Under the pieces are notes generated by a model that made no database searches, was not told the DNA's origin, and saw only the letters and a list, made by a program, of their open reading frames with translations. This document shows positions 34,485 through 57,142 of a DNA stretch of 64,000 bases, one piece after another (within the stretch, counting starts at the first letter, position 1; the number at the start of each line of letters is the position of its first letter). Location: the NCBI RefSeq assembly GCF_000378985.1, contig NZ_KB905370.1, positions 3,369,342 to 3,433,341 of the forward strand. Direction: 5' to 3'. The position numbers were made by a program, and so were the translations under genes. The DNA is from Ensifer sp. BR816. GTDB taxonomy: Bacteria; Pseudomonadota; Alphaproteobacteria; Rhizobiales; Rhizobiaceae.

Positions 34485-34498
34485 TTGATCGAGGTCAA
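34485..34498. promoter_or_regulatory. FNR/FixK box between the cytochrome c' gene and the copper module
   Basis: TTGATCGAGGTCAA matches TTGAY-N4-RTCAA exactly. It lies 56 bases from the cytochrome c' start and 62 bases from the start at 34560, so it could drive both divergent transcripts. Confidence 0.75.
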
Positions 34499-34559
34499 GG
34501 CAAGCCTTGCAACTGTCTCGCACTGTGCTTGAATACGTACCAAGGGTTCGAGCGAGATC

Positions 34560-34922
34560 ATGATCGCTGCCAGCCAGATAGTCCGGAACCGCGCAAGAGA
34601 ATTGCTGGCCGTTTTGGTCGCAATTATGTTCCTAGCTGCGCCGACGGCTGTGGCCACGCTGGTCAACTGCGACGCACACACCGCCCGAAGCGAGCAGGTC
34701 CTTTCCTCCCAGGAGGACACGGTTCTCCACGTCGAATTTCATCCGGGCGACCAGAAGGCATGCTGCAAAAGTGCCTGCAGCGTATGCAACGCCGTATTCC
34801 CGGCCCCACCCCTGATCGGCGTTACCCTGAAGTCGGACAATCACCGCTATCTCCCAAAGCAGCAGCCAATCGTCGGGCTCGACTCTCGGCCCGCCATCGG
34901 CCCTCCTCGATCCGACGGTTAG
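34560..34922 (+). CDS. Small secreted Cys/His protein upstream of the multicopper oxidase
   Basis: 120 residues with an N-terminal membrane or signal segment (LLAVLVAIMFLAAPTAVATLV) and a compact metal-type motif HVEFHPGDQKACCKSACSVC. It is not securely assigned; size, layout and position recall DUF2946-like proteins found in copper-response operons. It is probably the first gene of the copper transcript that continues with the oxidase and CopA. Confidence 0.6.
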   Translation: MIAASQIVRNRARELLAVLVAIMFLAAPTAVATLVNCDAHTARSEQVLSSQEDTVLHVEFHPGDQKACCKSACSVCNAVFPAPPLIGVTLKSDNHRYLPKQQPIVGLDSRPAIGPPRSDG

Positions 34923-35015
34923 ACGCGGCCGCCCTTCGGCGGCCCTTCCATGGGCGCATCCCCAAAATGCGGCTTACGTCGGCAGTGACCGGCACGGATT
35001 GAGAGGCAAAATAAA

Positions 35016-36482
35016 ATGAAACGTCGTGAATTCTTAGGCGGACTGATGTCGGGCGTCGCCCTCTCCGCGCCGGGTACCGCTCTGTTTCCAACTGTCGCGT
35101 GGCCGCAGAGAACGCCGGATAATGGGGCGAGCACTGGAACACGGTCGCTATCAATCGTGAAGCGCGTGCTGGAGGTGAACGGGAGAGCCGCAGAGGTCTT
35201 CGGGCTGGTTCAGCCGAACGGCGCGGTCGGCCTTGCGCTCGAGGCGGACACTCAGTTCGACGTCAGTCTTTCAAATAAGGGCGGCGAACCCACGCTCATC
35301 CACTGGCATGGACTCACTCCGCCATGGGACATGGATGGCGTGCCGGACAATCCAGCCGGGCTGCTGAGACCAGACGAAACCCGGCACTACACCTTTCCGG
35401 TCGGTTCCGGCGGCACGCACTGGATGCATGCGCATACGCTGCAGGAACAGAATCTGCTTGCAGCACCTCTGATCGTCAGAACCGCCGAGGATCGGCAGCG
35501 CGACGAGCAGGAAGTGGTCATCCTTCTTCATGATTTCTCCTTCACACCGGCCGAGGAATTGCTCGCCAGGCTCAAGGGTCCGGCTCAGATGGGCGAAGCA
35601 ATGGACCACGGTGCCATGATGCAGAGCATGGCTGGTGGAATGCACGGGGGCCATATGTCCGGCTCGGCGATGCCGGGCATGGCCGCCACGGACCTCAATG
35701 ACATCGAGTACGATGCCTATCTCGCCAATGACCGTACGCTCGATGATCCGGAAGTGGTTCCCGTCGAGAACCGAGCCCGCGTCCGCTTGCGCATCATCAA
35801 CGGCGCAACGGCGACAGAGTTCACCATAGATACGGGCCCACTCATCGGCCGGTTGATCGCCGTCGACGGACAGGCAATTCATGCTATCTCCGGGAGCCGT
35901 TTTCCGATCTCGATGGGCCAACGCTTGGACATTCGGCTCGAACTTCCCACGAGTGCCGAAACCCACCCTGTTCTTGCTTTACGCGAAGGAACGGACCATC
36001 GAACTGGCCTGATCCTCGCCCCGCCGGGAGCCAAGATCAGCAAGGTTTCGTCGCGTGGCACGGAAACCGGTCCGGTCGCCGGCCTCGAAACCGAAATGAT
36101 GTTGAAGGCAACCGCGCCGCTTTCCACGAGTCCGGCAGACCGCCGTTTCGAACTCGCGCTGGCGGGCACCATGGACGGCTACCAATGGCGGATCGACGGT
36201 GGCGATGGACTGAGCGTCAGGCAAGGCGAGAGGGTCGAAGTCGTCATGCGCAACATGTCGATGATGGCGCATCCCATGCACCTGCATGGACATCACTTCC
36301 AGGTGACCGAGATCGGCGGCAAGGCTTTCCAGGGCGCGGTGCGGGACACCGTTCTCGTGCCGCCCATGGCGAGCGTGACCGTCGCCTTCGACGCCGACAA
36401 TTCCCCCGGTCGTTGGCCGCTCCATTGCCATCACCTCTATCACATGGCTTCGGGAATGATGTCCTTCGTCGCCTACGCGTAG
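35016..36482 (+). CDS. Multicopper oxidase, copper-resistance type
   Basis: 488 residues with a twin-arginine-like leader (MKRREFLGGLMSGVALSAPG). Copper ligands are in HWHG (LIHWHGLTPPWDMDG), HWMHAHT, the C-terminal HPMHLHGHHF and the type 1/3 block HCHHLYHMASGMM. A Met/His-rich insert (MDHGAMMQSMAGGMHGGHMSGSAM, near residues 195-220) is typical of cuprous oxidases. It likely oxidises Cu(I) in the periplasm after Tat export. Followed 93 bases later by the Cu+-ATPase gene. Confidence 0.92.
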   Translation: MKRREFLGGLMSGVALSAPGTALFPTVAWPQRTPDNGASTGTRSLSIVKRVLEVNGRAAEVFGLVQPNGAVGLALEADTQFDVSLSNKGGEPTLIHWHGLTPPWDMDGVPDNPAGLLRPDETRHYTFPVGSGGTHWMHAHTLQEQNLLAAPLIVRTAEDRQRDEQEVVILLHDFSFTPAEELLARLKGPAQMGEAMDHGAMMQSMAGGMHGGHMSGSAMPGMAATDLNDIEYDAYLANDRTLDDPEVVPVENRARVRLRIINGATATEFTIDTGPLIGRLIAVDGQAIHAISGSRFPISMGQRLDIRLELPTSAETHPVLALREGTDHRTGLILAPPGAKISKVSSRGTETGPVAGLETEMMLKATAPLSTSPADRRFELALAGTMDGYQWRIDGGDGLSVRQGERVEVVMRNMSMMAHPMHLHGHHFQVTEIGGKAFQGAVRDTVLVPPMASVTVAFDADNSPGRWPLHCHHLYHMASGMMSFVAYA

Positions 36483-36575
36483 CTGAGACGGGTGGCCGGC
36501 CCCGAAAGCGTTGGTCCAGACGCAGCGTGCGCTACCATTGTTACACAGCGAGAACCATCACGGAGCTATTCCCAA

Positions 36576-38798
36576 ATGGCCGAGCATAAGCACCCTCAGG
36601 GTCACGAGCACCACCATCACCAACATCAACCGCAGGAGAACGCCGCTCCCGCACACCTCGGTGAGCCCCGCCCGGAAGAGCAGGAGGGCGTCGTCTACAC
36701 CTGCCCCATGCATCCGCAGGTTCGGCAGCTTGGACCCGGTAACTGCCCGATTTGCGGCATGGCGCTCGAACCGGAAATTATTACCGCCGAAACGGGACCC
36801 AGTCCGGAACTCATCGACATGCGACGTCGGTTCTGGATTGGTCTCGTCCTTACGCTGCCGGTGCTGGCGCTCGAAATGGGCGGCCATCTCACCAACCTGC
36901 ACATGCTGCTCGGCCCTCAGGCGTCGAACTGGCTCCAGCTTGTTTTCGCAACGCCTGTCGTGTTGTGGGCGGGCGCTCCGTTCTTCGAAAGGGCCTGGCA
37001 GTCGATACTCACCCGGCACCTCAACATGTTCACCTTGATCGCCATGGGCACCGGGGTCGCCTGGGTCTACAGCGTGGTCGCGACGGTCGCGCCCGGCCTG
37101 TTCCCCACGACGTTCCGTTCCGGGGACGGGGCAGTCGCGGTCTACTTCGAGGCGGCCGCCGTCATCACGGTGCTGGTCCTGCTCGGGCAGGTTCTGGAGC
37201 TGCAGGCGCGTGAGCAGACGGGAGGCGCGATCCGCGCCCTTCTGGACCTCGCGCCGAAGACCGCCCGCCGCATCCGCGATGATGGCACAGACGAGGACGT
37301 GCCGCTCGAAGCCGTCGCTGTCGGCGACAGGTTGCGCGTCCGTCCGGGCGAGAAGGTCCCGGTCGACGGTACCCTCGTCGAAGGCCGCAGCTCGGTCGAT
37401 GAATCGATGATCACCGGGGAATCGATGCCCGTCACCAAGGAGACCGGTGCCAAACTGATCGGGGGCACGATGAACAAGACGGGCGGCTTCGTCATGGAAG
37501 CCGGGAAGGTCGGCCGTGACACCATGCTGTCGCAGATCGTCCGCATGGTCGCCGAGGCCCAGCGGTCTCGCGCCCCTATCCAGCGCCTGGCCGATGAAGT
37601 GTCCGGCTGGTTCGTGCCCGTCGTCATCCTGATCGCCATCATAGCCTTCGCGACATGGATGATTGTCGGGCCGGAACCTCGCTTTGCCCACGGACTGGTT
37701 GCAGCCGTGGCCGTGCTGATCATCGCCTGCCCTTGCGCCCTTGGCCTTGCTACCCCGATGTCGATCATGGTCGGCGTCGGCAAGGGTGCCAGCGTCGGTG
37801 TGCTGATCAAGAACGCAGAAGCGTTGGAACGCTTCGAGAAGGTAGACACTCTGGTAGTCGACAAGACCGGAACCCTGACGGAGGGCAGGCCGAAGGTCAC
37901 TTCGATTGTCGCTGTTGAAGGCGGGTCGGAGGAGGAACTCCTGCGACTGGCCGCCACCTTGGAACGGCCGAGCGAGCATCCGCTGGGGGCCGCAATCGTC
38001 GAGGCCGCCAATGAGCGTGGGCTGTCGCTCGGCAAGGCCGAGGACTTCGACAGCCCGGTCGGCAGGGGCGTGACCGGCGTCGTGGAGGGCCGCAGGCTCA
38101 CTATTGGAAGCCACCGCATCATGTCCGAGGAGAACGTCGACGCCTCGACTCTCGCGAAAGAGGCGGAAGCGCTGCGCGGCGAAGGGGCTACGGTCATTTT
38201 TGCTGCCATCGATGGCCGCCTCGGCGGCTTGTTCGCGATCTCCGATCCGATCAAGGCGACGACACCGGCCGCCGTCGAGGCGTTGGTGAAGGACGCTATG
38301 CGCGTGGTGATGCTCACGGGAGACAACAAGACCACGGCCAACGCCGTTGCCCGCAAGCTCGGCATAAAGGAGGTCGAGGCGGAAGTCCTGCCGGAGCATA
38401 AGAGCGAGATCGTCGCGCGGCTGCGCAGCGAGGGGCGGATCGTCGCCATGGCAGGCGACGGGGTGAACGACGCCCCTGCCCTTGCGGCCGCCGACGTCGG
38501 CATCGCCATGGGAACCGGAACCGACGTGGCAATCGAGAGCGCTGGTGTCACGCTGCTCAAGGGCGATCTTCAGGGCATCGTGCGGGCACGACGGCTGAGC
38601 CACGAGACGATGAGGAACATCCGCCAGAACCTGTTCTTCGCCTTCATCTATAACGCCGCTGGTGTCCCGGTTGCCGCTGGCGTGCTCTATCCGGCCTTCG
38701 GATTGCTGCTGTCGCCGATCATTGCGGCTTTGGCGATGGCGCTCTCGTCGGTCAGCGTGATCAGCAATGCCCTCAGGCTAAGGAGTGCTCAGATATGA
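36576..38798 (+). CDS. copA: Cu+-exporting P1B-type ATPase, CopA
   Basis: 740 residues. A His-rich N-terminus (HEHHHHQHQ) is followed by a heavy-metal-binding module CPMHPQV...[10 protein letters not shown] in place of a standard HMA domain, then eight membrane helices. Functional motifs are the ion-pathway CPC ([12 protein letters not shown], about residue 386), phosphorylated Asp429 in DKTGTLTEG and [10 protein letters not shown]. Exports Cu(I) from the cytoplasm. The stop overlaps the DUF2933 gene (ATGA). The P-type ATPase remnant at 40860-40965 is closest in sequence to this gene. Confidence 0.94.
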
Positions 38799-39004
38799 CC
38801 TGGGATCGCAAATGGACGCTGTTCGTCGCCTCGCTCGCCGTGATCGCCGCGTTCTTCATTCTCCGCGAGCACTGGCAACATGCGCTGGGTCTCACACCCT
38901 ACCTGCTGCTGCTCGCCTGCCCGTTGATGCATCTCTTCCATGGCCACGGCGGTCATCGCCATGATCATCGCGGCCAACGGGCGAAAACGGATGATCTCAC
39001 ATGA
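38795..39004 (+). CDS. DUF2933 small membrane protein
   Basis: 69 residues with two hydrophobic segments and a His-rich tail ([16 protein letters not shown]). It overlaps copA by ATGA and the next gene by another four-base overlap, so it is translationally coupled. DUF2933 proteins commonly sit beside metal ATPases; function unknown, His tail suggests metal handling. Confidence 0.85.
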
Positions 39005-39486
39005 CCTACGCACACGCGGCACAAGCCATCGCCGACATCTCAACGTCCGCCGAGCTGCTTTTTGACTACCTGGACGACCAGGCCAGTCTCGGCTCGCACA
39101 TGCAGAAGTCCTCGATGATGATGCTCGGCGGCCGGATGTCATACGAGTTGGACGCAGCCCAAGGCCGGGCCGTTGGCTCCGTCATCAAGATGTACGGCAA
39201 CATACTGGGGTTGCGGCTCTTCGTGGAGGGAGTCGTCATCGAGTACCAGCCTCCGCGCCGGAAAGTGTGGGAGACGCGGGGACGGCCGAATCTTGTCGTC
39301 ATCGGTGCCTACCGGATGGGCTGCGAGATCAGCGGCTCGGATGGCGCATCGCGGCTTCGTGTTTTCATCAATTATGATCATCCAGCCACGTTCACGGGAC
39401 AGTTCCTGGGGCCGCTGTTTGGACCGATCTACGCACGCTGGTGCGTCAACCGGATGGCGAATGACGCTGCCAGCAAGTTTCGGTGA
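39001..39486 (+). CDS. SRPBCC (START-like) family protein of the copper operon
   Basis: 161 residues with the polyketide-cyclase/START-like pattern: STSAELLFDYLDDQASLGSHM at the N-terminus and a C-terminal amphipathic helix (PIYARWCVNRMANDAASKF). The start overlaps the DUF2933 stop. Role unknown; such proteins bind hydrophobic ligands. Confidence 0.78.
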   Translation: MTYAHAAQAIADISTSAELLFDYLDDQASLGSHMQKSSMMMLGGRMSYELDAAQGRAVGSVIKMYGNILGLRLFVEGVVIEYQPPRRKVWETRGRPNLVVIGAYRMGCEISGSDGASRLRVFINYDHPATFTGQFLGPLFGPIYARWCVNRMANDAASKFR

Positions 39487-39896: not shown

Positions 39897-40529
39897 TCAC
39901 ATCATCCCCATCATCGAAGTCACAAGCAGCCTATCAGCCATCTGTTTCTGTGCTCCCTCGAACGACTGATAGAGAGGAACGAGCGCGGCTTTCAGCTTTC
40001 GTACGCGTTCAAGGCGGCTGGCCAGGGCGCTTTCACTCAGTTCAACACGCTGCAAAGGTGTCACGGCCATGCCCCCTGGTCCTCCCATCCCACCCGGCAT
40101 CTGCATCATACCATCCTGTGTTCCGCGGGCATTAGCTCGCAGAAGCTCGGCAAAGGCGTTCCACAACGTCTCCTGCTGGGGAGTTATCTTGAGCTCTGTT
40201 TTCAGGAACGCGATACGCCCCTCGATGTGTTCGGGGGCCATCATCTGGGCCATCGCACCCATGGCGGTCTGCCCCATTGCCGCCTGACGGTCCATCATAC
40301 CCATGGTGTCTTGTCCCCCGGTCATCATCCGCATCATGCCGCTCATCATGTCACCGCACATCATGCCGCTCGGCATCGCAGCAGTCGGGTTCGCGGCAGG
40401 CATCTGTCGTTGAGCAGTTGCTTCGCTCGCCTGGGTGGTGGCCTCGGGATGGTGTGCGTCTTCGGCAAAACCTGGCACACCCAGCATAAGCAGTGTGCTC
40501 ACCAGCAGAAACGTTCGCAGCGTCGTCAT
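39897..40529 (-). CDS. Spy/CpxP-like periplasmic protein (LTxxQ family), Met-rich
   Basis: 210 residues: signal peptide (RTFLLVSTLLMLGVPGFA), a Met-rich segment (MMCGDMMSGMMRMMTGG and later GMMQMPGGMGGPGGM) suited to Cu(I) binding, and the LTxxQ-type helix LKITPQQETLWNAF. Spy/CpxP proteins are ATP-independent periplasmic chaperones or metal sensors. A FixK box lies 65 bases upstream of the start. It is probably part of the copper and envelope-stress response. Confidence 0.82.
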   Translation of the reverse strand: MTTLRTFLLVSTLLMLGVPGFAEDAHHPEATTQASEATAQRQMPAANPTAAMPSGMMCGDMMSGMMRMMTGGQDTMGMMDRQAAMGQTAMGAMAQMMAPEHIEGRIAFLKTELKITPQQETLWNAFAELLRANARGTQDGMMQMPGGMGGPGGMAVTPLQRVELSESALASRLERVRKLKAALVPLYQSFEGAQKQMADRLLVTSMMGMM

Positions 40530-40593: not shown

Positions 40594-40607
40594 TTGACGC
40601 AAATCAA
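40594..40607. promoter_or_regulatory. FNR/FixK box upstream of the Spy-like gene
   Basis: TTGACGCAAATCAA, an exact TTGAY-N4-RTCAA match, 65 bases upstream of the start at 40529 on the minus strand. Confidence 0.7.
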
Positions 40608-40975: not shown

Positions 40976-40989
40976 TTGTCCCAGATCAA
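40976..40989. promoter_or_regulatory. Imperfect FNR/FixK box upstream of the DUF6448 gene
   Basis: TTGTCCCAGATCAA, one mismatch from TTGAY-N4-RTCAA, 55 bases before the ATG at 41045. The position is right for activation, the sequence is weaker than the others in the window. Confidence 0.45.
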
Positions 40990-41044: not shown

Positions 41045-41581
41045 ATGCCTCCACATTGCGACAGCATGGACGGACCGGTTGTTAATGCCGCGCGCGGGGC
41101 ATTGGAAACCGAGGATGTCAATTTGATCCTGCCTTACGTTCAGGAAAGCAGCGCCGCGGAGTTAATGGCTGCTTTCAAGAAAGTAATGGAAGCCCGCAGC
41201 AGCGGTCCAGAAGCGCGTTCGGTCGCCGACCTCTACTTCTACGAAACTGCCGTGCGGCTGCACCGAGCCGGAGAAGGTGCTCCCTACACCGGAGTCAAGC
41301 CGGCCGGCCTTGACGTTGGTCCGGTCATCCCCGTTGCGGAGAAAGCAATTGAGACCGACTCCCCCGAGGCATTGATCCGATTGCTGGCCGACACCCTCCA
41401 GGATGAGGTGCAGCACCGGTTCGAGCGTGTGCGGAATCTTCGTGATCATAGTCCCTCAGACATTGCAAAGGCTCGAAGGTACGTGGAGGCGACACTTGGA
41501 TTTCTCGTCTACTCGCATCGGCTCTATCAAGCCATAAAGGCGGCGCCCCACGAGGGTGATTCCAAACACCACCATGACTGA
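41045..41581 (+). CDS. DUF6448 family protein
   Basis: 178 residues beginning MPPHCDSMDGPVV, the family's characteristic His/Cys start, then mostly helical sequence with a His-rich end (DSKHHHD). No signal peptide is visible in this start. Function unknown. It lies 86 bases before the second groEL, between two FixK-type boxes. Confidence 0.75.
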   Translation: MPPHCDSMDGPVVNAARGALETEDVNLILPYVQESSAAELMAAFKKVMEARSSGPEARSVADLYFYETAVRLHRAGEGAPYTGVKPAGLDVGPVIPVAEKAIETDSPEALIRLLADTLQDEVQHRFERVRNLRDHSPSDIAKARRYVEATLGFLVYSHRLYQAIKAAPHEGDSKHHHD

Positions 41582-41603: not shown

Positions 41604-41617
41604 TTGATGCGCGTCAA
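41604..41617. promoter_or_regulatory. FNR/FixK box upstream of the second groEL
   Basis: TTGATGCGCGTCAA, an exact TTGAY-N4-RTCAA match, 50 bases before the groEL start at 41668. There is no CIRCE element here. Confidence 0.75.
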
Positions 41618-41667: not shown

Positions 41668-43302
41668 ATGGCTCACAAGCAAGTCCTTTTCCATTCGGCT
41701 GCCCGAGAGAAGATCTTGAAAGGCGCTACGCAACTCGCCGATGCGGTCCGGGTGACGCTCGGCCCGCGATCAAAAGCTGTGCTGATCGAGAGAAAATGGG
41801 GAGCGCCGATCGTCTGCAATGACGGGGTGACGATCGCCAAGGAGTTCGACCTTAAGGATCCGGAAGAGAACCTCGGGGCACGAATGCTACGCCAGGCAGC
41901 GGAGAAGACAGGCGAAATCGTCGGCGACGGAACGACCACATCGACCATTCTCGCGCATGCGATTTTCGCCGACGGCCTGCGCAATGTCGTTGCGGGCGCA
42001 AGCGCGATCGACATCAAGCGCGGGCTTGATCGCGGCGCTAAACGGGCTGTCGCCGAGTTGAAGAAAAATTCACGCCCTGTCTCAGAGAAGCGCGAAAAGG
42101 AGCAGGTCGCAACAATTTCGGCCCATAATGATGCGCAGATCGGCACGCTCGTCGGCGATGCCATGGAGAAGGTGGGCGATGACGGGGTCATCAGCGTAGA
42201 GGAATCGAAAACGACCGAGACGGTCCTCGAAGTCGTCGAAGGCATGCAGTTCGATCGTGGCTACCTCTCGCCCTATTTCGTCACCGATGCCGAACGAATG
42301 GAAGTCGTGCTTGAAAGCGCCGCCGTCCTCCTGTTCGACCGGAGGATCACTTCGCTCAAGGATTGCGTGGAACTCCTCGAGGCCGTCGCGAAAGCCGGGA
42401 CGCCACTGTTGATTATCGCCGAAGATGTGGAAACCGAAGCGCTGGCAACCCTGATCGTCAACCAGATGCGCGGAACGCTCCACAATTGTGCGGTCAAGGC
42501 ACCTGGATTCGGAGACCGACGCAAGGCCCTGCTGCAGGACATCGCCATTCTCACGGGTGGTCAGCTTATCTCCGAGGAGCTGGGCATAAAGCTCGAAACG
42601 GTCATGCCCGAACAGCTCGGCCGTGCCGAACGGATCGTCATCACGAAAGATACGACCACCATCATTGGTGGCGCGGGCGACAAGGAGGCCATCAGTGGCC
42701 GAGCGGGACAGATACGCAAGGAAATTCCGACCACAGCCAGCGAGTACGACCGAGAAAAGCTCCAGGAGCGACTGGCGAAGCTTTCTGGCGGCGTTGCGGT
42801 GATCAAAGTGGGGGCTGCCACAGAGGCGGAACTTAAGGCAAAGAAGGAAGCGCTTGATGACGCAATCAGCGCGACCAAGGCGGCCGTAGCTGAAGGAATT
42901 TTGCCGGGTGGCGGATTGGCTCTCCTGCGCTGTATCAGCGCGGTCGAAGAAGAGGAACAGGCCTGTGAAGGCGACGAGCGCACCGGCGTTCAGGTGCTTA
43001 AGCGGGCGCTGGAAATCCCGGCACGTCAAATCGCCGAGAACTCCGCGGCCGACGGCGGCGTGGTGGTCGCGAAGATGCTCGAGGGTCAGGGCAATTTCGG
43101 TTACGACGCGGGGCGTAAGGTCTATGTCGACTTGGTCTCAGCCGGCATCATCGACCCCACCAAAGTGATCCGAGTCGCACTCGAAAACGCGGTTTCGGTC
43201 GCAAGCGTGCTTCTGCTCACCGAAGCCACCATGACGGAAATTCCCGAGACGCCGAAGGAAACAATGTCTGAGGCCGCGATGCAGCCCGTAGTCGCAGGCT
43301 GA
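41668..43302 (+). CDS. groEL: Second GroEL-type chaperonin, no linked groES
   Basis: 544 residues. All core blocks are present ([53 protein letters not shown]) but with many changes from copy 1: RSKAVL for KGRNVV and [10 protein letters not shown] for [10 protein letters not shown] in the apical domain. The C-terminus ends [10 protein letters not shown] and lacks the Gly-Gly-Met tail that fills the cavity. Rhizobia carry several GroELs with specialised roles, some for symbiosis. The FixK box suggests low-oxygen expression. GGAGGG precedes the ATG. Confidence 0.93.
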
Positions 43303-45078: not shown

Positions 45079-45092
45079 TTGATCTGGCTCAA
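45079..45092. promoter_or_regulatory. FNR/FixK-like box upstream of the hydrolase gene
   Basis: TTGATCTGGCTCAA, one mismatch from TTGAY-N4-RTCAA, 73 bases upstream of the start at 45006. Confidence 0.5.
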
Positions 45093-47614: not shown

Positions 47615-47851
47615 TGAGGCGGGAAGATCGGAAACGCCTGCCATAACTCGACGCGTTCATGCGCGACGAAACTATCAACGAACTGGTTCTCGCTGCGGCG
47701 CCGTGCCTTCTTGGCCCCTCGCGCAAATTGCACGCACCGTGGCCACCAGTTTCCAATCACTGAGATCGAGCATTATATTTCTGAATGATATCCACCTGGG
47801 GCGATGCTCGCAGCGGTCGCAGCGACACGCCGGCGAACCGAGGAGCAAGTG

Positions 47852-48571
47852 GTGGAGAACGAGGCATCGGCCATTGCCCTTGAGGCGCGAAAGCTCACCA
47901 AGATCTATCGAATGGGTACGGTGGAAGTCCACGCCCTGCGCGGCGTGGACGTGGATCTTCGCCAAGGCGAGCTCGTGGTTCTTTTGGGACCCTCCGGAAG
48001 CGGCAAATCGACCCTGCTCAACATTCTCGGAGGTCTCGATATGCCGACCAGCGGCAGCGTCATGTTTCGCGATCAGCCGCTGGCGCTGGACAGTGAACGC
48101 GCGCTCAATCTTTACCGCCGCAATCACGTGGGATTCGTCTTCCAGTTCTACAATCTCATTCCCAGCCTCACGGCCCGCGAAAACGTTTCTCTCGTGACAG
48201 AGATCGCCACGAATCCGATGCCGCCGATCGAAGCTCTGACCATCGTCGGCCTCGGCGACAGGCTGGATCACTTCCCGGCGCAGCTTTCCGGCGGCGAGCA
48301 GCAACGGGTCGCCATCGCCCGCGCGATCGCCAAGCGACCCGACCTGCTTCTCTGCGACGAGCCTACCGGCGCGCTCGATAGCAAGACCGGGATCCTCGTG
48401 CTCGACGCGATCCTCAGGACCAATCGGGAGCTCGGCACAACCACGGCGCTTATCACCCATAATGCGGTGATTGCCGAGATTGCCAATCGCGTGCTGTACT
48501 TTGCCGACGGGCGCATCGTCGAAACGCGGCGCAACGCGATTCAGCGCGCCCCCGGCGAACTCGCCTGGTGA
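47852..48571 (+). CDS. ABC transporter ATP-binding protein, LolD/MacB type
   Basis: 239 residues from the GTG at 47852, six bases after AGGAG; an ATG at 47804 is the alternative. Walker [11 protein letters not shown]-loop [17 protein letters not shown], signature [15 protein letters not shown], Walker [13 protein letters not shown] and H-loop THN. The family powers FtsX-like mechanotransmission permeases rather than substrate channels. It overlaps or abuts the permease gene downstream. Confidence 0.92.
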
Positions 48572-48573
48572 GC

Positions 48574-50913
48574 ATGATGAGTAGTCTCGATCGCAAGCTC
48601 ATTCGTGAACTCTGGAGGCTGAAGGCCCAGGTCCTCGCCATCGCCCTAGTGATCGCCTCGGGCACGGCGCTGCTCATCATGGCGCTGACGACCATCGAAG
48701 CGCTGGAAGAGACGACCTCCGCCTATTACGAACGTACGCGCTTCGCCGACGTGTTTGCGCGCGCCAAACGCGCGCCTGAATATCTCGGCCGCGATATCGC
48801 GGAAATTCCGGGCGTACGGCTCGCCGAGACGCGGATTATGGAAGGCGCCATTCTCGACATGCCGGGCTTTCCCGAACCGGTCGTCGCGCAGCTGATTTCG
48901 CTGCCCGAACGCGGCCCTGAGCTTCTGAACGCATTGGTGATCCGGTCCGGTCGTCTGGCAGACCCTACGCGACCCGACGAGGTCGTGGTCAGCGAACCTT
49001 TCGCAGAAGCCCACAGCTTGAAGCCCGGCGATAGCTTCGATGCCGTGTTGCGGGGCCGGAAGCGCACACTTCAGGTCGTGGGCACCGCGCTCAGCCCCGA
49101 ATTCGTCTACGCGATCGCACCCGGCGGCCTCATGCCGGACGACGAGCGTTACGGCATTCTGTGGATGGGGCAGGATGCGCTGGCGGCCGCCTTCGACCTT
49201 GAGGCCGCCTTCAACAGCGTCACGCTCAGTCTGCTGCCCGGTGCGGACGAGAAGGACGTCATCCGGCGGCTCGACAATCTGCTGTCCCCGTTCGGCGGCG
49301 TGGGCGCCTACGGGCGCGCCGACCAGACCTCGAACTGGTTCCTGGAAAGCGAGATCGCCCAGCAGAAGAACATGTCGAGGATCATGCCGACCATCTTCCT
49401 TGCGGTTGCCGCCTTCCTGACGAACATGGTGATGGCGCGGCTGATCGAGACCGAACGTCGCGAGATCGGCCTGCTGAAGGCGTTCGGCTACGACAACGGG
49501 TCGATCGGATGGCATTACACGAAGATGGTCCTCGTTATCGGCACGATCGGCATCCTGATCGGCTCTCTGATCGGCGCCTGGCTTGGCCATTGGAACACGG
49601 AGCTCTACACCAAGTTCTACCGCTTTCCGTTCCTGCTTTATCGCCCCGGCCCGGCCGGTTTCGTGATCGCCGGCGCGATCAGCCTGGCTGCGGCGCTCGC
49701 AGGCAGCCTCGCGGCGGTCCGCCGCGCCGTCCGGCTCCCGCCTGCCGAGGCCATGCTGCCGCCCTCCCCGCCGATCTATCGGCGCACCTGGGCATCGCGA
49801 ACGGTGCTCGCCAGGGCACTGGACGAACCGTCGCGCATGATCCTCAGACGCATCATCCGATGGCCGTTGCGGGCGTTCCTCGCCAGTCTCGGCCTTGCCA
49901 TGTCGATCGCCGTGCTCATCATGGCGCTGCAATGGGTCGACGCCATCGATTCCCTTGCCGAGACCGTCTTTGAACGTGGGCAACACCAGGACGCGACCGT
50001 CGCGTTCAACGACCTGCAGCCGATCGATACGGTCGGAGACTTCGAGGGGCTGCCCGGCGTGCTGGCGGCGGAACCCTACCGCTATGCATCAGCACGCATT
50101 GGCCACGGGCATCTTATCGAGCGACAAGGGATCATCGGCGTCCCGCCAGGCGCAATCCTCAGTCCTGTGTTCGACGTCGAGCGCGGTCGCATCGAGGCTC
50201 CTCCCGGCGGGCTCATGGTCTCGCGCAAGCTCTCCGAACTTCTCGATGTCAGAGCTGGCGACACCGTGGCCGTCGAACTTCTGGAAGGCCGTCAGACGCG
50301 ACTAAGCCTGCCAGTAGTTCAGATCTTCGAAACCTATCTCGGCACGCCCGTCTACATGGACATGGCCACGCTCAATCGGATCGCTGGCGATGGCCGCGTC
50401 GTGAGCGGCCTGCATATCCGTGTGGACGCCCCGAGCCGAGCCACGCTGCTGGCAAGGCTCAAGGACATCCCGAACATCGCCGCCGTTCTTTTCCGCCAGG
50501 CCGCGATCGACACCTTTTACAAGACCATGGGCGAAACGATCTTCATCTTCATCGGCTTCTTCGTCGCTTTCTCGATGACACTGTCGGTCGGCGTCACCTA
50601 CAATTCGATCCGAATCGCGCTTTCCGAACGGGCACGCGAACTCGCGACCTTGCGCGTCCTCGGCTTCAGCCGTTGGGAAATCTCCTACATCCTGCTTGGC
50701 GAAGTCAGCATCCTGACATGGGTCGCCATCCCACTTGGCGCGACCATCGGCTACGGCCTTGCATGGTACATGACGAGCGCCTTCGAGACGGAACTCTACC
50801 GCGTACCGCTCGTGGTTCGGGACGCAACCTACGGCAAGGCGGCGCTGATTGCGCTCAGTGCGACGTGGTTTGCGCTGCAATCGTGCGACGGCGCCTCGAC
50901 CATCTGGATCTGA
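48574..50913 (+). CDS. FtsX/MacB-like ABC permease with a C-terminal frameshift
   Basis: About 779 residues with two FtsX domains (around 270-400 and 650-770), each with three or four membrane helices and a large periplasmic MacB-type domain between. Near 50870 the expected ending IVRRRLDHLDLIAVLKTRE is in another frame and would stop at 50939, three bases before the next gene; adding one base (ACGTGG to ACGCTGG) restores it. As written, the last dozen residues are changed. Works with the ATPase upstream and HlyD protein downstream. Confidence 0.88.
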   Translation: MMSSLDRKLIRELWRLKAQVLAIALVIASGTALLIMALTTIEALEETTSAYYERTRFADVFARAKRAPEYLGRDIAEIPGVRLAETRIMEGAILDMPGFPEPVVAQLISLPERGPELLNALVIRSGRLADPTRPDEVVVSEPFAEAHSLKPGDSFDAVLRGRKRTLQVVGTALSPEFVYAIAPGGLMPDDERYGILWMGQDALAAAFDLEAAFNSVTLSLLPGADEKDVIRRLDNLLSPFGGVGAYGRADQTSNWFLESEIAQQKNMSRIMPTIFLAVAAFLTNMVMARLIETERREIGLLKAFGYDNGSIGWHYTKMVLVIGTIGILIGSLIGAWLGHWNTELYTKFYRFPFLLYRPGPAGFVIAGAISLAAALAGSLAAVRRAVRLPPAEAMLPPSPPIYRRTWASRTVLARALDEPSRMILRRIIRWPLRAFLASLGLAMSIAVLIMALQWVDAIDSLAETVFERGQHQDATVAFNDLQPIDTVGDFEGLPGVLAAEPYRYASARIGHGHLIERQGIIGVPPGAILSPVFDVERGRIEAPPGGLMVSRKLSELLDVRAGDTVAVELLEGRQTRLSLPVVQIFETYLGTPVYMDMATLNRIAGDGRVVSGLHIRVDAPSRATLLARLKDIPNIAAVLFRQAAIDTFYKTMGETIFIFIGFFVAFSMTLSVGVTYNSIRIALSERARELATLRVLGFSRWEISYILLGEVSILTWVAIPLGATIGYGLAWYMTSAFETELYRVPLVVRDATYGKAALIALSATWFALQSCDGASTIWI

Positions 50914-50942
50914 TCGCGGTGCTGAAAACAAGGGAGTAGTCG

Positions 50943-52142
50943 GTGAGGGTCGCAAGGCGCCGCTTGATAATCTGGGGTAGTCTGCTAGCGCTGCTCGCGG
51001 CCGGCATCGCCTATGCGCTCTGGCCCCGGCCAATCCAGGTCGACCTCGCCGTCGCCGAAACCGGCACATTGCGTGTAACCATCGACGAGGAGGGCGAAAC
51101 GCGGGTGCGCGACGTCTACACGCTTTACGCGCCGTTGCGCGGTCAGTTGCAGCGCATCACTCCCGAGGCGGGCGATGTCGTCAAGGCCGGGGAGACTCTG
51201 CTTGCGCAAATCGAGCCCGCCGCGCCGGCCTTTCTGGACGTACGTTCAGAGGCGGAGCAGCAGTCGGCGGTCGAGGCGGCGCGAGCAGCTTACAACCTCG
51301 CCGCCGCCGAACTAAACAAGGCGAAAGCCGATCTGATCTTTGCCGAGGGAGAGCGAGCCCGTGCCCGACTTCTCATCGAACGCAACACGATTTCCAGGCG
51401 GACGCTCGAGGATGCCGAACGTGCCTATAATGTCGCGGAAGCCAATCTCGCCACCGCCGAGGCCGGCCTGAAGGTGCGAGAGCACGAACTTCATCAAGCC
51501 CGGTCGCGGCTCTTGTCGCGCCAGGAGATCAGCAGCCGCAGTGGTCCCTGCGAATGCGTGTCGGTGACGGCGCCGGTGAGCGGTGTGGTTCTGCAGGTCA
51601 TGCGCCGCAGCGAAGGCGTGGTCGAGGCGGGAACCCCTCTGCTCGATATCGGCGATCCTACGGATCTGGAAATCGTCGCCAACTTCCTCTCGGAAGACGC
51701 TGTCAAGATCAAGCCCGGTCAAAAGGCGATCATCACCGGCTGGGGGGGCAAGGATCTGCATGCCCTTGTGCGGCGCATCGAGCCCTTCGGGCAGACCAAG
51801 GTCTCGGCCCTCGGCATCGAGGAACAGCGCGTCGACGTCATGCTCGACTTTGCCGATCCGTCGGAGCTGTGGCGTTCGCTCGGGCATGGTTACCGCGTCG
51901 ACGTTCAGGTTCTCCTGTTCGAAGGTGAAGTGCTCAAGCTGCCGCTCGGCGCCTTGTTCCGGCAAGGCGACACATGGACGGTCTTCGTCATGGAACAGGG
52001 GAGAGCACGCGCGCGCCCCATCGTCGTCGGCCAGCGCAACAACCTCTCGGTTGAAATCCGCGAGGGCCTTAAATCGGGGGAGAAGGTGATTCTATATCCG
52101 AGCGACCGCATCAAGGACGGGGTGACCATCATTCAGCGTTAG
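50943..52142 (+). CDS. HlyD/RND-type periplasmic adaptor (membrane fusion) protein
   Basis: 399 residues from a GTG: one membrane helix (LIIWGSLLALLAAGIAYALWP), a split lipoyl domain (GDVVKAGETLLAQIEP), a coiled-coil hairpin (roughly 100-180, with DAERAYNVAEANLATAEAGLKV) and beta-barrel. Completes a MacAB-like exporter with the two genes upstream. No outer-membrane TolC gene is nearby. Substrate unknown. Confidence 0.9.
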   Translation: MRVARRRLIIWGSLLALLAAGIAYALWPRPIQVDLAVAETGTLRVTIDEEGETRVRDVYTLYAPLRGQLQRITPEAGDVVKAGETLLAQIEPAAPAFLDVRSEAEQQSAVEAARAAYNLAAAELNKAKADLIFAEGERARARLLIERNTISRRTLEDAERAYNVAEANLATAEAGLKVREHELHQARSRLLSRQEISSRSGPCECVSVTAPVSGVVLQVMRRSEGVVEAGTPLLDIGDPTDLEIVANFLSEDAVKIKPGQKAIITGWGGKDLHALVRRIEPFGQTKVSALGIEEQRVDVMLDFADPSELWRSLGHGYRVDVQVLLFEGEVLKLPLGALFRQGDTWTVFVMEQGRARARPIVVGQRNNLSVEIREGLKSGEKVILYPSDRIKDGVTIIQR

Positions 52143-52190: not shown

Positions 52191-53501
52191 CTATTCAAGC
52201 TCTATCCGATATGCCGTTCCTGCGCGCAGGATATCGACGGAGGCCTTGACCCCGATGGTTTGCAGAACGTCTCGAACTTGATCAGCGGAGAAGGCCGCCT
52301 TGCCATTGACAGCGGTCAAATAGTCGCCGGTTCTCAGCCCCATCGCATAGACGACGCTACCTCTTGCGACGTCGACGAGGACCGCGCCTGTCGGCATACA
52401 GGCCGGTGACCCGGTCGCCGAGGGGAACTCAACGACGACCGTGTCTCGATCGCTCGATTGCGAAAGCGTCACATTCAGCTTCCGCGGCTCTTCTCCTCGA
52501 CGGATATCGAGTGTGATGCGGGCATTGGCCGGAAGCAAGCTGACCGCGTTCCTGAAGGCTGCGTCCGTTGCGAAGGTCCGGCCATCCAGCGCCATGATGA
52601 CATCGCCAAGCCGCACGCCCTGCCGTTCCGCCGGCGAATTGCAGGCCAGCTCGTTTACGACGAGGCCCTGCCCCTCATCGCTACCTCCGTCGGCTATCGC
52701 CGCAACGGGCGTCACGGAAAGGCCGAGCCAGCCGCGCTTGTATTCTCCGTGGATGATGAGTTCCCGGACGATCTGCATCGCAACGTCGGACGGCATCGCA
52801 AAGCCGATGCCAGTGCTTTCTTCGCTGGGAGCGGGAATGCCGCGCGCAATGCCAATCAGCTCGCCGTAGGCATTGACGAGCGCGCCGCCGGAATTCCCCA
52901 GGTTGATGGCCGCATCGGTCTGGATGTAATCCTGATATTCATCGGCATCCAAGCCCGAGCGACCCAAGCCGCTGATGATGCCGAAAGTCGCGCTCTGCGC
53001 CATGCCGAGAGGATTACCCACCGCGACGACAAAATCGCCGACCTTCAGTTCGGATGAATGCCCCCACTTCAGCGCGGAAAGACCTGGTGCCTTGATCTTG
53101 ACCACCGCGAGATCTGTCGGCCCATCCTCCCCTACCCTGTCGGCCTCGAAAGCCCGTCCGTCCGCGAGCGTCACGGAAACGTCGTCGGCGTCGGCAACAA
53201 GATGACGGCTCGTGACGATATAGCCATCCTCACTGTCGACGATCACGCCCGACCCCACCGCGGTCGCACCGCTCTGGACGATGAAAACGTCGTCCGGAAG
53301 CCCCAAAAACCTTCGGACGTTCGGATCTTCGAGCTTCTCGTTTCTGAAAATTCCGCTGCTGAGGGTGTGGATGCTGACGACCGCAGGCCGCACGCGCTGC
53401 AATATCGCGGATACGCCCGCTTCGATGCTCGTAGCTTCGGCTGCCCCTCCCCAGACGTCGAGTAGAGCAGCCAGACCGAGCAGCCTTGAGATCCTGAACA
53501 T
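52191..53501 (-). CDS. Second Deg-type serine protease with PDZ domains
   Basis: About 436 residues with a signal peptide (FRISRLLGLAALLDVWGGAAEA). Triad: His in YIVTSRHLVADA, Asp in GPTDLAVVK and Ser in INLGNSGGALV. One clear PDZ domain follows (NSPAERQGVRLGDVIMALD) and a second diverged one (RGSVVYAMGLRTGDYLTAVN). Low similarity to the 31406-32746 protease suggests separate ancestry. A FixK box lies 57 bases upstream of the start, pointing to low-oxygen envelope quality control. Confidence 0.88.
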   Translation of the reverse strand: MFRISRLLGLAALLDVWGGAAEATSIEAGVSAILQRVRPAVVSIHTLSSGIFRNEKLEDPNVRRFLGLPDDVFIVQSGATAVGSGVIVDSEDGYIVTSRHLVADADDVSVTLADGRAFEADRVGEDGPTDLAVVKIKAPGLSALKWGHSSELKVGDFVVAVGNPLGMAQSATFGIISGLGRSGLDADEYQDYIQTDAAINLGNSGGALVNAYGELIGIARGIPAPSEESTGIGFAMPSDVAMQIVRELIIHGEYKRGWLGLSVTPVAAIADGGSDEGQGLVVNELACNSPAERQGVRLGDVIMALDGRTFATDAAFRNAVSLLPANARITLDIRRGEEPRKLNVTLSQSSDRDTVVVEFPSATGSPACMPTGAVLVDVARGSVVYAMGLRTGDYLTAVNGKAAFSADQVRDVLQTIGVKASVDILRAGTAYRIELE

Positions 53502-53557: not shown

Positions 53558-53571
53558 TTGACGCGCATCAA
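53558..53571. promoter_or_regulatory. FNR/FixK box upstream of the second Deg protease
   Basis: TTGACGCGCATCAA, an exact TTGAY-N4-RTCAA match, 57 bases upstream of the start at 53501. Confidence 0.7.
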
Positions 53572-54161: not shown

Positions 54162-54192
54162 CGATCTCCGTTCCCGTGCCAACGGGCGGCTC

Positions 54193-55789
54193 TCATGCCT
54201 CCTCCCGCAGTGCACGCCGTAACCGGCGGATCACGACGCCGCGCGCCTTGTCGTCCGCGGCCTTGGCCAACTCGTCCTGCAGATCGAGGACGAGCGACTG
54301 GAAATCATTGTGCCAATCCGTCCTTCCCACCAGAACAGGATCGATGCGCGGCGCCGCCGCCGCCTCGGATATCTCCACCGCACCATGCGGGGTTAGACGA
54401 AAGGCGCTGTCCAGGCTCGGCCGGATCACCCGATCTTCCGCCAGGAAGGTGGAGAGGCGTTGCCTCAGCCCGTCAAGTGCTTCGGCCTCCCCGTGGACGA
54501 GAAAGACGGCGGCGCTGATTGGCTGCCGGGACTGCACCCATTCGGCGAGTTCACGGCCGTCGGCATGGCCGCTATAGATGTCCAGCTTTCTGATCCGGGC
54601 GCGGACGCGGACATCCTCCCCCTGAATGCGCACGACGGAGGCACCTTCTTCGAGAAAGCGCCCAAGCGTGCCGGCCGCCTGGTATCCCACGAGCAGCACC
54701 GTCGCTTCATCGCGCCACAGCCAATTTTTCAATCGGTGCCGTATGCGTCCGGCCTCGCACATGCCGCTCGCAGCGATGACGATGTGAAAGCCCCGAATGA
54801 AATCGATCGCCTTGGATTGCTCCGCCGTCTCGGTGAAGCGCACGTTCTTCGCCTCGATCGCCCTGACAAGAACATCGGCGTTTTCGAGGCCGCGAGCATG
54901 CCGGTGGAAGATCTCGCTGGCGCGCGTCGCAAGTGGAGAGTCGATGATGATTGGGCATTTGGGGACAGCACTCGTCTCCATAAGATGGACGAGATCGGTG
55001 AGCAGTTCCTGCGTGCGCTCCACCGCAAAGGAGGGAATGATCAGCGCCCCGTTCGGATGCACTGCGTTCAACACTTCCGAGCGCAGGATGTGATGCCGCG
55101 CGGCATCGTCCGTTTCCTTGCGCTCGACATCGCCGTAGGTGCTCTCGCAGATGACATAATCCCAGCCGCTCGGCGCTTTCGCATCGAACTGCAGGAGCTT
55201 GTGGCGCGGACCGATGTCGCCCGAAAACAGCAACCGCAATGGCGACGGCGCTGCATCGATCTCCATCTCGACGGAAGCCGATCCGAGCAGATGTCCGGCG
55301 TTCCAGAAACGGAAGCGAATGCCCTCGCCTGCCTTCTCCCAAGAGCCGAGGCGCACCTGCCGGAACAGTGTGATCGCGGCAGCGGCGTCACGGGCGGTAT
55401 AAATGGGCGTCACCGCATGCCGGCCCCGGCGCAGGTTGCGGCGGTTGAGCTGGACGACTTCGCTCTCCTGGATATGAGCAGAATCCGGCAGCATGACGGA
55501 GCAGAGATCGGTCGTCGCCGGCGTCGCGAAAATAGGGCCCGTCATAACCAAGCCTGGCAAGCTTCGGCAGCAGGCCTGAATGGTCGATATGCGCGTGCGT
55601 GAGGATGACGGCGTCGATCGTCTTGGGATCGAAAGGAAAGGGACGGTAGTTCAGCTCCTTCTCTGTCTTCGATCCTTGGAACATACCGCAGTCGACGAGG
55701 ATCTTCGTGGCACCGAATTCGATGAGCTGGCAGGAGCCCGTGACGTTTCCGGCGGCACCATGAAAGCGGATGGTCGGTTCGATGGGCAT
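54193..55789 (-). pseudogene. Beta-CASP metallo-beta-lactamase RNA-processing nuclease, frameshifted near the N-terminus
   Basis: The first frame (from 55789) carries [18 protein letters not shown] and the metal motif [15 protein letters not shown]; the second (to 54193) carries GHLLGSASVE, SGDIGP, ESTYGD and the beta-CASP blocks AASGMCEAGRI and YSGHADGRELAEW. Removing one C from GGGCCCT near 55543 unites them into about 531 residues, normal for the family. Members act as exo/endoribonucleases. A perfect FixK box lies 62 bases upstream. If the indel is a sequencing artefact, the gene is intact. Confidence 0.82.
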
Positions 55790-55850
55790 AGTCGCGACCT
55801 GATATGGATGACGGCATGCCTAAGCATGCACACTTGCTCCGGCGGGCGAC

Positions 55851-55864
55851 TTGATGCGGATCAA
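55851..55864. promoter_or_regulatory. FNR/FixK box upstream of the beta-CASP gene
   Basis: TTGATGCGGATCAA, an exact TTGAY-N4-RTCAA match, 62 bases upstream of the start at 55789 on the minus strand. Confidence 0.75.
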
Positions 55865-55948
55865 AAACGCAAATCGCGCCCATTCGGGGCGCAGGGACCT
55901 TGCCGGATGGGCGGCAAATGGAACGGTCGTTCAATCCAATCGCCCGGT

Positions 55949-56965
55949 CTAGTTTGGCGCGTTGGTCTCCTGATCTCCAATGGTCGCGACAAAAATCGCC
56001 TTGATGGCATGCATGCGGTTTTCGGCCTGATCGAAGACGACGGAAGCTTTCGATTCAAAGATAGCGTCGGAGACTTCCATGCAATCGAGACCGAACTGCT
56101 TCGCAATGCGCCCTCCGGCCCTGGTGCTCCTGTCGTGAAACGCGGGCAAGCAATGCATAAACTTGCTATGCGGGTTGTCGGTGGCTTCCATGACGTTAGC
56201 CCTGACGCCGAACGGTGCCAGCAGTCTGATGCGCTCGCTCCATCCCGTCTCCTGCTCTCCCAGCCAGGATGCCGTGTAGATGAAATCGGCACCCAACACC
56301 CCGGCGCCCACATGTTCCAGGACTGCGAACTTTCCACCATTCTTGCGCGCCTCAGACGTCACGTGCTCCACAAAGGTAGGAGCGGGCCAAAATATCCGTG
56401 GTGAGACGATACGGAAATCCATGCCGAGCTTGGCCGCCCCTATGGCCAGCGATCTGGCGATGGAACTGCGGCCGTCGCCGAGGAACGCAACAGCAACTTC
56501 GGGCAGCGTCTTGCCGGCGAATTCCTGCACCGTCAGGAAATCCGCCAGCGCCTGGATCGGCTGAAACTCGTCGGTGAAACCATTGTAGACGGGGACGTGC
56601 GCGCAGGCGGCAAGTTCCTCCACAGCGCTTTGGGAACGGCCGCAATATTCGATGGCGTCATAGATCCTTCCAAGCACGCGGGCCGTGTCCTTGATTGATC
56701 CGTGCTGCCCGGTATTACCCGCAGGAAGAAGCATGCTGACGGGGTGAGCGCCTTGGTCATAGGCAGCAACTTCCGATCCAAAGAAAGCGTTGCGCGAATC
56801 CTCGTCGCTCACAAGCGCGATATTTTTGCCGCTGAGCCGGCGGACTTCCTTGCCATCCCGCTTGGCGACCTTCAGCTCCGCAGCGAGATGCAGAAGAAAC
56901 CCGATCTCCTCTGAAGTGAATTCATCGAGCGTCAGGACGCTACGGCCTTGAAGACTGATCGACAT
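55949..56965 (-). CDS. Ornithine-carbamoyltransferase-like protein lacking the carbamoyl-phosphate site
   Basis: 338 residues, the OTCase length, alignable throughout: SEVAAYDQGA, ARVLGRIYDAIEY, VPVYNGFTDEF, ADFLTVQE and MHCLPAFHD are all recognisable. But the carbamoyl-phosphate loop STRT is SRNA (residues 57-60), the YRG arginine is Cys (YCGRSQ) and HPTQ is QPIQ. The reading frame is continuous and no indel explains this. It is therefore probably not an active OTCase; it may be regulatory or have a new ligand. Two FixK boxes lie upstream. Catabolic ArcB-type ancestry is likely. Confidence 0.85.
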   Translation of the reverse strand: MSISLQGRSVLTLDEFTSEEIGFLLHLAAELKVAKRDGKEVRRLSGKNIALVSDEDSRNAFFGSEVAAYDQGAHPVSMLLPAGNTGQHGSIKDTARVLGRIYDAIEYCGRSQSAVEELAACAHVPVYNGFTDEFQPIQALADFLTVQEFAGKTLPEVAVAFLGDGRSSIARSLAIGAAKLGMDFRIVSPRIFWPAPTFVEHVTSEARKNGGKFAVLEHVGAGVLGADFIYTASWLGEQETGWSERIRLLAPFGVRANVMEATDNPHSKFMHCLPAFHDRSTRAGGRIAKQFGLDCMEVSDAIFESKASVVFDQAENRMHAIKAIFVATIGDQETNAPN

Positions 56966-57095
56966 GACATTGCCCGTTGTTTCGATTATCGGCGCCGCCA
57001 AAATGCGACATCTGCGGAAACTCACCCACGGAACCAGTTGCAAATGCCGAGGCGCGCATTCCCAAGAAGTGAACAACAGATGCGAGCCTCGGGCT

Positions 57096-57142
57096 TTGAC
57101 GCTCATCAAATTCATGCCTTCCGGCGCTTTGATGAACATCAA
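57096..57142. promoter_or_regulatory. Two FNR/FixK boxes between the OTC-like and GNAT-like genes
   Basis: TTGACGCTCATCAA at 57096-57109 and TTGATGAACATCAA at 57129-57142 both match TTGAY-N4-RTCAA exactly. They are 131 bases from the OTC-like start (minus) and 182 bases from the GNAT-like start (plus), so each may serve one of the divergent genes. Confidence 0.75.

Follow-up and report, generated by a model that had tools for sequence, protein, structure and literature searches.

The 64,000-nucleotide stretch of Ensifer sp. BR816 DNA analysed here (contig NZ_KB905370.1, positions 3,369,342 to 3,433,341; hereafter the window) carries a dense cluster of FNR/FixK-type boxes grouped around a fixK gene. 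We conclude that this island is very probably a low-oxygen FixK regulon with a sensor cascade of its own, in which a hybrid FixL (hFixL) and an OmpR-type response regulator, FxkR, would control fixK. Positions below are those of the window, continued past its ends where the flanking sequence is described, and positions elsewhere in the genome carry a contig prefix.

Density, promoter spacing and conservation of the boxes

We used TTGAY-N4-RTCAA as the exact box pattern and TTGA-N6-TCAA as a looser variant, and gene starts and intergenic status were taken from a simple gene caller of our own. The initial annotation had listed ten boxes between 34485 and 57142, eight exact and two with one mismatch, all in intergenic gaps. 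Our pattern scan of the window recovered a box at each of the ten coordinates, exact at 34485, 40594, 41604, 45988, 53558, 55851, 57096 and 57129 and with one mismatch at 40976 and 45079; all ten were intergenic by our gene calls, and 28 to 169 nucleotides (nt) separated box and assigned start. The list had overlooked a further exact site at 52306, within the Deg protease gene. When up to one mismatch was allowed, 17 matches were present in the window versus 4.3 expected, a number reached by none of 100 shuffles, and exact TTGA-N6-TCAA sites numbered 10 versus 0.74 expected. The first 34 kb of the window contained no exact site and only one-mismatch matches, at 10698, 19200, 26902 and 32069, and TTGA-N6-TCAA was absent from the 20 kb to the left of the window. 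To the right of position 57142, exact sites were found at 66870, 67842, 74443, 78445, 80357, 80641 and 83782 (n = 7).

The initial annotation had proposed a motif scan of the whole replicon, and the scan was extended to the 6.95-Mb genome, which consists of three contigs (C1, C2 and C3) and has the island on C1 (6.13 Mb). The exact pattern occurred 55 times, versus 6 times for the pattern read backwards; 29 of these sites are of mixed type, 11 are TTGAT/ATCAA and, by subtraction, 15 are TTGAC/GTCAA. An equal density was not seen elsewhere: 16 of the 55 sites fall within 49.3 kb, between 34485 and about 83795, 20 kb beyond the end of the window, and in 20,000 trials with 55 randomly placed sites no 50-kb interval ever held more than 7. 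The island, first described as 23 kb long, extends over about 49 kb, with edges at about 34.4 kb and 84 kb. The densest 50 kb of C1 outside the island held 4 sites, three of which are the identical palindromes adjoining repC-type genes at C1:4.30 Mb discussed below, in a check that used 50 of the 55 sites and left out the four on C2 and C3 and the one at C1:5963822; with the latter included, the count of exact sites in the fix/fnrN region at C1:5.95-5.96 Mb is likewise 4. The sequence holding the 16 exact island sites is 86% coding, and 14 of them are wholly intergenic, one (66870) overlaps a stop codon and one (52306) is coding. Among the 39 sites outside the island, 31 were examined in 3-kb pieces, and 22 were intergenic.

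Promoter spacing was scored for 20 box-gene pairs, which were derived from the 15 of 18 sites that have a gene start within 400 nt. A -10-like hexamer tended to begin 21-22 nt after the box, and the mean best -10 score at 20-22 nt was 2.62, compared with -3.25 (standard deviation, 0.77) at random intergenic places, none of 5000 as high, and -2.80 (standard deviation, 0.79) at control places located 50-169 nt before starts and turned toward the gene, none of 20,000 as high. The 20-22 triplet was also the best of 56 offset triplets. In class II activation by FNR the box is centred near -41.5, which this spacing matches; the spacing holds for the box set as a whole and not for each box. The double site 57096/57129 was oriented by its -10 spacing, and both scores were modest.

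Conservation was examined in 33 stretches from relatives, in which a box was sought within 350 nt upstream of orthologues. Among these orthologues, 131 of the 158 belonging to box genes had an exact box, compared with 10 of the 227 belonging to the remaining genes, and after near-identical stretches were collapsed the counts were 97 of 119 and 9 of 169; 883 of 20,000 random 365-nt stretches held an exact box. Half of the 10 control hits came from copA (36576), which has no box here and has one in 5/5 relatives. Left out of the 158 were 33863 and 34560, which have no orthologues; 41066 and 44317, which have one-mismatch boxes (0/1 and 0/3 exact); and 45671 (3/3 exact), 54193 (17/18) and 84095 (0/4), each of which shares its box with a counted gene. 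Without these exclusions the counts became 151/183 versus 10/231. The box is exact in all orthologues of the Spy-like gene (6/6) and of groEL2 (9/9, at 50-51 nt from the start in six), and it is kept in all orthologues of Hsp20 (13/13) and of gene 57312 (18/18). It is likewise found 65-67 nt from the start of the stress protein gene 66949 in 12/12 relatives. The Deg protease gene (52191), whose S. meliloti orthologue we take from position and locus numbering to be SMa1128, has the box in 12 of 13 orthologues, always 52-58 nt from the start, and the N-terminal frame of the beta-CASP gene has it in 18 of 19, always at 50-63 nt. Sites of the TTGA-N6-TCAA form that fall outside the YR pattern were noted at 64068, 64106, 69330, 81947 and 92906; since such sites recur upstream of relatives of mgtA (6/6), an acyl-CoA synthetase gene (12/16) and a BON-domain gene (14/15), the exact pattern probably captures less than the whole regulon.

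The regulatory module beside fixK

The fixK gene lies inside the island between genes for an FxkR-like regulator and an hFixL-like sensor (Table 1). Its product is 76% identical to that of 621242-621946 on pSymA, the S. meliloti megaplasmid, a gene which we take from its position and locus numbering to be SMa1141. The closest solved structure is FixK2 (4I2O), and the protein has a cyclic nucleotide monophosphate (cNMP)-binding fold; these domain and structure matches were obtained with a longer reading from 58690, and the start is now placed at 58696. The single cysteine, residue 150 of the longer reading, is not near the N-terminus. The recognition core is ETVSR, the same as in the FnrN encoded in this genome; the E--SR residues of the recognition helix have a role in DNA recognition. 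Of the 33 stretches, 19 contain a relative of fixK (identity at least 40%), and each of these also has hFixL- and FxkR-like genes.

The best matches of the FxkR-like product are OmpR-type models, not FixJ-type ones; the domains were found with a start at 58529, 24 nt further in than the start now placed at 58553, and the FxkR label derives here from these models and from the place beside fixK, not from an alignment with R. etli FxkR. The second PAS domain of the hFixL-like protein matches the heme domain of S. meliloti FixL (1d06, E 1.8e-46), and the protein is predicted to be a heme-based oxygen sensor. Between the FxkR-like gene and fixK lies an exact K-box, the only one in the genome. In front of the 19 fixK relatives a K-box was found at 78-85 nt, exact in 11, with at most one mismatch in 14 and with at most two in 18, and none of 400 other upstream regions of the same stretches contained one within two mismatches. 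The 16 fixK orthologues that were scored all lack an exact FixK box upstream, which fits control through the K-box. From its sequence, the module appears to be an hFixL-FxkR-FixK cascade as in Rhizobium etli and R. leguminosarum, and since fixK sits in such a module with a K-box, it has a likely oxygen input.

In the circuit that we propose, the heme PAS domain of hFixL would lose oxygen as the oxygen level falls, and hFixL would hand phosphate to FxkR. At the K-box, FxkR would turn on fixK and probably hFixL too. Lacking an oxygen-sensing cluster itself, FixK would bind the TTGAY-N4-RTCAA boxes and act by class II activation. The predicted targets are the genes for GroEL2, Hsp20, Spy-like chaperones, universal stress proteins, the Deg protease, ornithine carbamoyltransferase (OTC) and the beta-CASP hydrolase, together with stress and transport genes to the right of the window. 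FnrN, encoded elsewhere, would probably act on the same boxes near anoxia.

A profile search with PF00325 alone detected three CRP/FNR genes in the genome; others may exist. The genome encodes an FnrN-like protein with four cysteines (C1:5963941-5964682), whose gene has two boxes upstream and which probably shares the island boxes. A gene at C1:2667292 is 93% identical to a CRP/FNR protein of pSymA and is presumably NnrR or a relative. Upstream of fixNOQP and fixGHIS, too, lie boxes of this type; fixN was identified by 91% identity to the pSymA protein, and the other fix gene names are our assumption. nifH is on contig C2. A search of this genome gave no orthologue of FixJ: full-length matches to the S. 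meliloti protein reach 42-47% identity at best, whereas FixJ of 77-98% identity (E 1e-50) is present in 20 of 33 genomes of the genus. Eight of the 33 genomes have both an exact K-box and FixJ, 6 (this one included) the K-box only, 12 FixJ only and 7 neither. We reject a classic FixLJ-FixK cascade for BR816 given the lack of a FixJ orthologue (the genome-wide search covered FixJ, not FixL). The FixJ-like loci at C1:0.96 and 3.06 Mb were also dismissed; they lie beside large kinases which are 31-33% identical to FixL and do not have the ILMP-type stretch found in the hFixL heme PAS.

Table 1. Positions of boxes, genes and an RNA element in the window
Feature	Position	Strand	Context
Exact box	34485-34498		Between cytochrome c' (33863-34456, -) and copper module (34560-39486, +)
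Exact box	40594-40607	-	Before Spy-like LTXXQ protein gene (39897-40529, -); TAGCTT at 21 nt
One-mismatch box	40976-40989	+	Before DUF6448 gene (41066-41581, +); AATAAT at 22 nt
Exact box	41604-41617	+	Before groEL2 (41668-43302, +); weak -10 TACGAA at 21 nt
One-mismatch box, weak	45079-45092	-	Before alpha/beta hydrolase gene (44317-45006, -); GACATT at 21 nt
Exact box	45988-46001	+	Before Hsp20 gene (46162-46689, +); TTTAAT at 22 nt
Universal stress protein gene and ABC ATPase/FtsX-type permease/HlyD-type adaptor genes	46784-52142	+	Downstream of Hsp20, no own boxes
Exact box	52306-52319		Inside Deg protease coding sequence; no start within 400 nt
Exact box	53558-53571	-	Before Deg-type protease gene (52191-53501, -); TGAAAT at 22 nt
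Exact box	55851-55864	-	About 61 nt before beta-CASP metallohydrolase gene (54193-55789, -); weak -10 CATGCT at 22 nt
Exact box	57096-57109	-	Spacing points to OTC gene (55949-56965, -)
Exact box	57129-57142	+	Spacing points to divergent small gene (57312-57764, +)
FxkR-like OmpR-type response regulator gene	57813-58553	-	Response_reg and Trans_reg_C; divergent from fixK
K-box GTTACACCTTGTTACA	58593-58608	+	Between FxkR-like gene and fixK; pattern GTTACA-N4-GTTACA
fixK, CRP/FNR family, 248 residues	58696-59442	+	No N-terminal cysteine cluster
hFixL-like sensor gene	59458-61344	+	PAS, FixL-type heme PAS, HisKA, HATPase, C-terminal receiver
ROSE RNA thermometer	28866-28961	-	Before Hsp20-like gene; 82 bits

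Weighing the readings of the island

Several observations weigh against a FixK regulon, either for single sites or for the module. No -10 element was present at class II spacing in either direction from 34485, the box at 45079 was absent, even with one mismatch, in 3/3 orthologues, and 78445 and 80357 have no gene start within 400 nt, while 52306 lies in coding sequence. Exact boxes were kept in 0 of 4 orthologues of 83902, 3 of 6 of 74540 and 10 of 15 of 67921, and the OTC gene has a box in 16 of 29 relatives, the 13 without one being copies of 46-61% identity. Orthologue counts are not all independent, since boxes are shared between 55949 and 57312 and between 72799 and 74540. Elsewhere in the genome, -10 scores at the class II spacing fall below zero for the fixN and fixG boxes; because these boxes fail too, the spacing test is no clean classifier, and failure is no proof of non-function. 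With regard to the module, the K-box pattern read backwards also occurs once in the genome and 9 times in the 33 congeners, versus 18 K-boxes, and at one mismatch the backward control gives 12 sites in the genome versus 4 for the K-box. Four near-identical stretches of S. fredii type have a K-box with two mismatches, and one distant fixK relative has one with three. The case for the K-box thus rests on its place and conservation, because an exact K-box alone is not unusual in a genome.

Relatives lend the one-mismatch boxes little support; apart from the loss of the 45079 box, the single orthologue found for the gene at 40976 has a site with at most one mismatch (exact, 0/1). The initial annotation had viewed the cluster as a FixK/FNR regulon island with boxes preceding ten genes and with the local fixK as its natural activator. 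Density, position, promoter spacing and conservation sustain the island, and most of the interpretation stands; the assignments of 34485 and 45079 are weak, and the extent had to be revised. The placing of the module inside the island, with its K-box, favours the local fixK as an activator, but probably not as the sole one, as FnrN is also encoded.

The alternative that the island is activated mainly by FnrN instead of the local FixK, with the fixK module having a minor or different role, is somewhat unlikely in our view. The FnrN-like protein has its cysteines, upstream boxes and an ETVSR core identical to that of FixK, and microaerobic induction of an Hsp20 gene of R. leguminosarum UPM791 depends on an anaerobox and on FnrN (PMC11784457). 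It is the fixK module, however, that sits inside the island and that recurs in 19 of the 33 stretches, and when R. leguminosarum 3841 is grown free-living at low oxygen, mutation of hfixL or fxkR removes most fixNOQP expression and, in the case of hfixL, much fnrN expression as well (PMC7888657).

We consider it quite improbable that the boxes are bound by a CRP/FNR protein that responds not to oxygen but to, for example, nitric oxide, cyclic nucleotides or nitrogen/carbon status, and that the island is a general stress regulon. The FixL-type sensor, the regulator and the K-box beside the local fixK speak for oxygen, as do the boxes of the same type before fixNOQP and fixGHIS. A different signal would agree with the cNMP-binding fold of FixK and with the CRP/FNR gene at C1:2667292. 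The counterpart region in S. meliloti also counts against a low-oxygen FixK regulon: it was tied to nitrogen limitation and the polyhydroxybutyrate (PHB) cycle, not directly to oxygen, responding to nitrogen limitation and PHB mutations (PMC5596199), and it contains acid-induced genes (PMC4941405).

An origin of the clustering in base composition or in unrelated intergenic palindromes, without a common regulator, has next to no probability, since for the set as a whole it is refuted by the shuffles, the simulations, the spacing of the promoters and the conservation of the boxes, although the pattern does catch unrelated palindromes and single sites such as 52306 or 78445 may still fit this explanation. 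Not every pattern match can be taken as a regulatory site: we rejected 52306, which is probably a chance match, and three identical TTGACAGCTGTCAA palindromes adjoining repC-type genes at C1:4.30 Mb, which we take to be likely partition sites. The exact box at 78445 sits between the 3' ends of two convergent genes and may be a chance match or belong to an unannotated RNA.

Neighbourhood of the island and comparison with known systems

The genes flanking the 34485 box (33863 and 34560) had no orthologues in the stretches of the 33 relatives. A FixK-type box also separates a second divergent pair of genes, cytochrome c'-like and copper-ATPase-like as named by eye, at C1:3747993. The ATPase and HlyD-type labels in Table 1 were taken from the annotation of collinear genes in a relative. 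The beta-CASP gene is split over two overlapping frames, and its pSymA relative is a single frame of 531 residues; a sequencing error or recent loss would account for the split. A cluster matching the pSymA genes that we take to be nos genes follows at 93 kb and is preceded by the TTGA-N6-TCAA variant.

Directly to the left of the island, at 27.8-32.7 kb, is a chaperone cluster of two Hsp20-like, groES-groEL-like and Deg-like genes without an exact box; with the RNA thermometer located there, heat control and low-oxygen control would adjoin each other. Between 32888 and 33896 we noted, by eye, an exported protein spread over two overlapping frames and a short flavin reductase-like fragment, which suggests that the left edge of the island holds decayed genes. 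Proteins with similar beginnings, recombinase-like by eye, are encoded at -1844 to -153 and at 23388 to 25479, about 25 kb apart, one of them with a second gene in two pieces, and a mobile element to the left of the island is possible. A repC gene and its neighbours at C1:4298136, on the 6.13-Mb contig, suggest a chromosome-chromid fusion in this strain.

On pSymA of S. meliloti 1021, the highest density of an Fnr/FixK-like motif was described in 2017 for a 120-kb region, SMa1077-SMa1297, which includes SMa1141 (PMC5596199); neither FxkR nor hFixL occurs as a word in the accessible text of that paper. FixK control of degP4 in S. meliloti has been described (PMC3164228), and SMa1128 has been called DegP4-like (PMC8175422). 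Between Hsp20 and the nos-type genes, gene order in the BR816 island largely agrees with that in the pSymA region, most protein pairs are 71-96% identical, and four pSymA boxes are identical in sequence to those at 53558, 55851, 57129 and 66870. The pSymA region also has an exact K-box, at 621141, besides the fixK relative and genes resembling hFixL and FxkR. The two regions differ in that the pSymA stretch compared has no OTC or mgtA matches, some pairs are only 44-67% identical, and the counterparts of the 74540 and 78516 genes sit to the left of Hsp20; moreover, pSymA carries FixJ, of which the BR816 genome has no orthologue, and the BR816 island is on the 6.13-Mb contig. The FxkR-like gene of pSymA is split over two frames (record 620365-621104), and hFixL there lacks its first 100 or so residues, in contrast to the single FxkR-like frame of about 245 residues in 16 of the 18 other stretches with the module (G142 gives a partial match, and the frame in G042 starts at residue 10). 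The hFixL-FxkR cascade of S. meliloti 1021 may be broken, or the pSymA record may be in error.

Much of the gene set is carried by S. fredii pSF45436d, which matched 82% of the window between 44 and 64 kb, and parts of it (37-50% of the same query) by pSymA, S. meliloti LMB1 pB and several S. meliloti and S. medicae plasmids of 144-281 kb. We offer tentatively, and with some doubt, the proposal that the island is a portable oxygen-response cassette, in which sensor, relay, activator and much of the regulon are found as a unit on pSymA-type megaplasmids, on small accessory plasmids and on a main replicon, and that in Sinorhizobium lineages without FixJ it stands at the head of low-oxygen control, including that of fixNOQP by way of shared boxes, replacing FixLJ; in the literature covered, from which subscription journals were mostly absent, no description was found of a FixJ-less Sinorhizobium run by hFixL. 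If the proposal is true, a broken cascade in S. meliloti 1021 would explain why such a system escaped notice in the model strain. Because small plasmids predicted to be conjugative or mobilizable carry the same genes, low-oxygen tolerance may be transferable between strains as a block. With this analysis a list of motifs becomes a circuit open to experiment, in a genus whose model species is approached via FixLJ; the promoters named here can serve to distinguish FixK from FnrN, and the little-known DUF6448, beta-CASP hydrolase and small 57312 genes gain a physiological setting.

The hFixL-FxkR-FixK cascade and the K-box were defined in PMC4999443 and PMC7888657, and orthologues of hFixL-FxkR-FixKf were noted in S. 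meliloti in 2016 (PMC4999443). BR816 shares with R. etli CFN42 and R. leguminosarum 3841 the hybrid FixL, the OmpR-type regulator beside fixK and the K-box before fixK (PMC4999443, PMC7888657), as well as FnrN, with two boxes, as the likely second stage. In R. leguminosarum 3841 one module cluster adjoins fixNOQP (PMC7888657), whereas in BR816 the whole module lies inside an island of predicted targets. The FixK regulon predicted for Alphaproteobacteria likewise lists Hsp20, HlyD, ABC permease, kinase and CBS-domain targets; unlike the BR816 island it includes fixL and fixJ, and no hFixL-FxkR was seen in the accessible part of that paper (PMC2908626). Taken together, these comparisons identify the island as a relative of the known pSymA region, with a circuit that can be named more exactly than in the initial annotation and a layout that resembles that of R. 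leguminosarum 3841 more closely than that of S. meliloti 1021.

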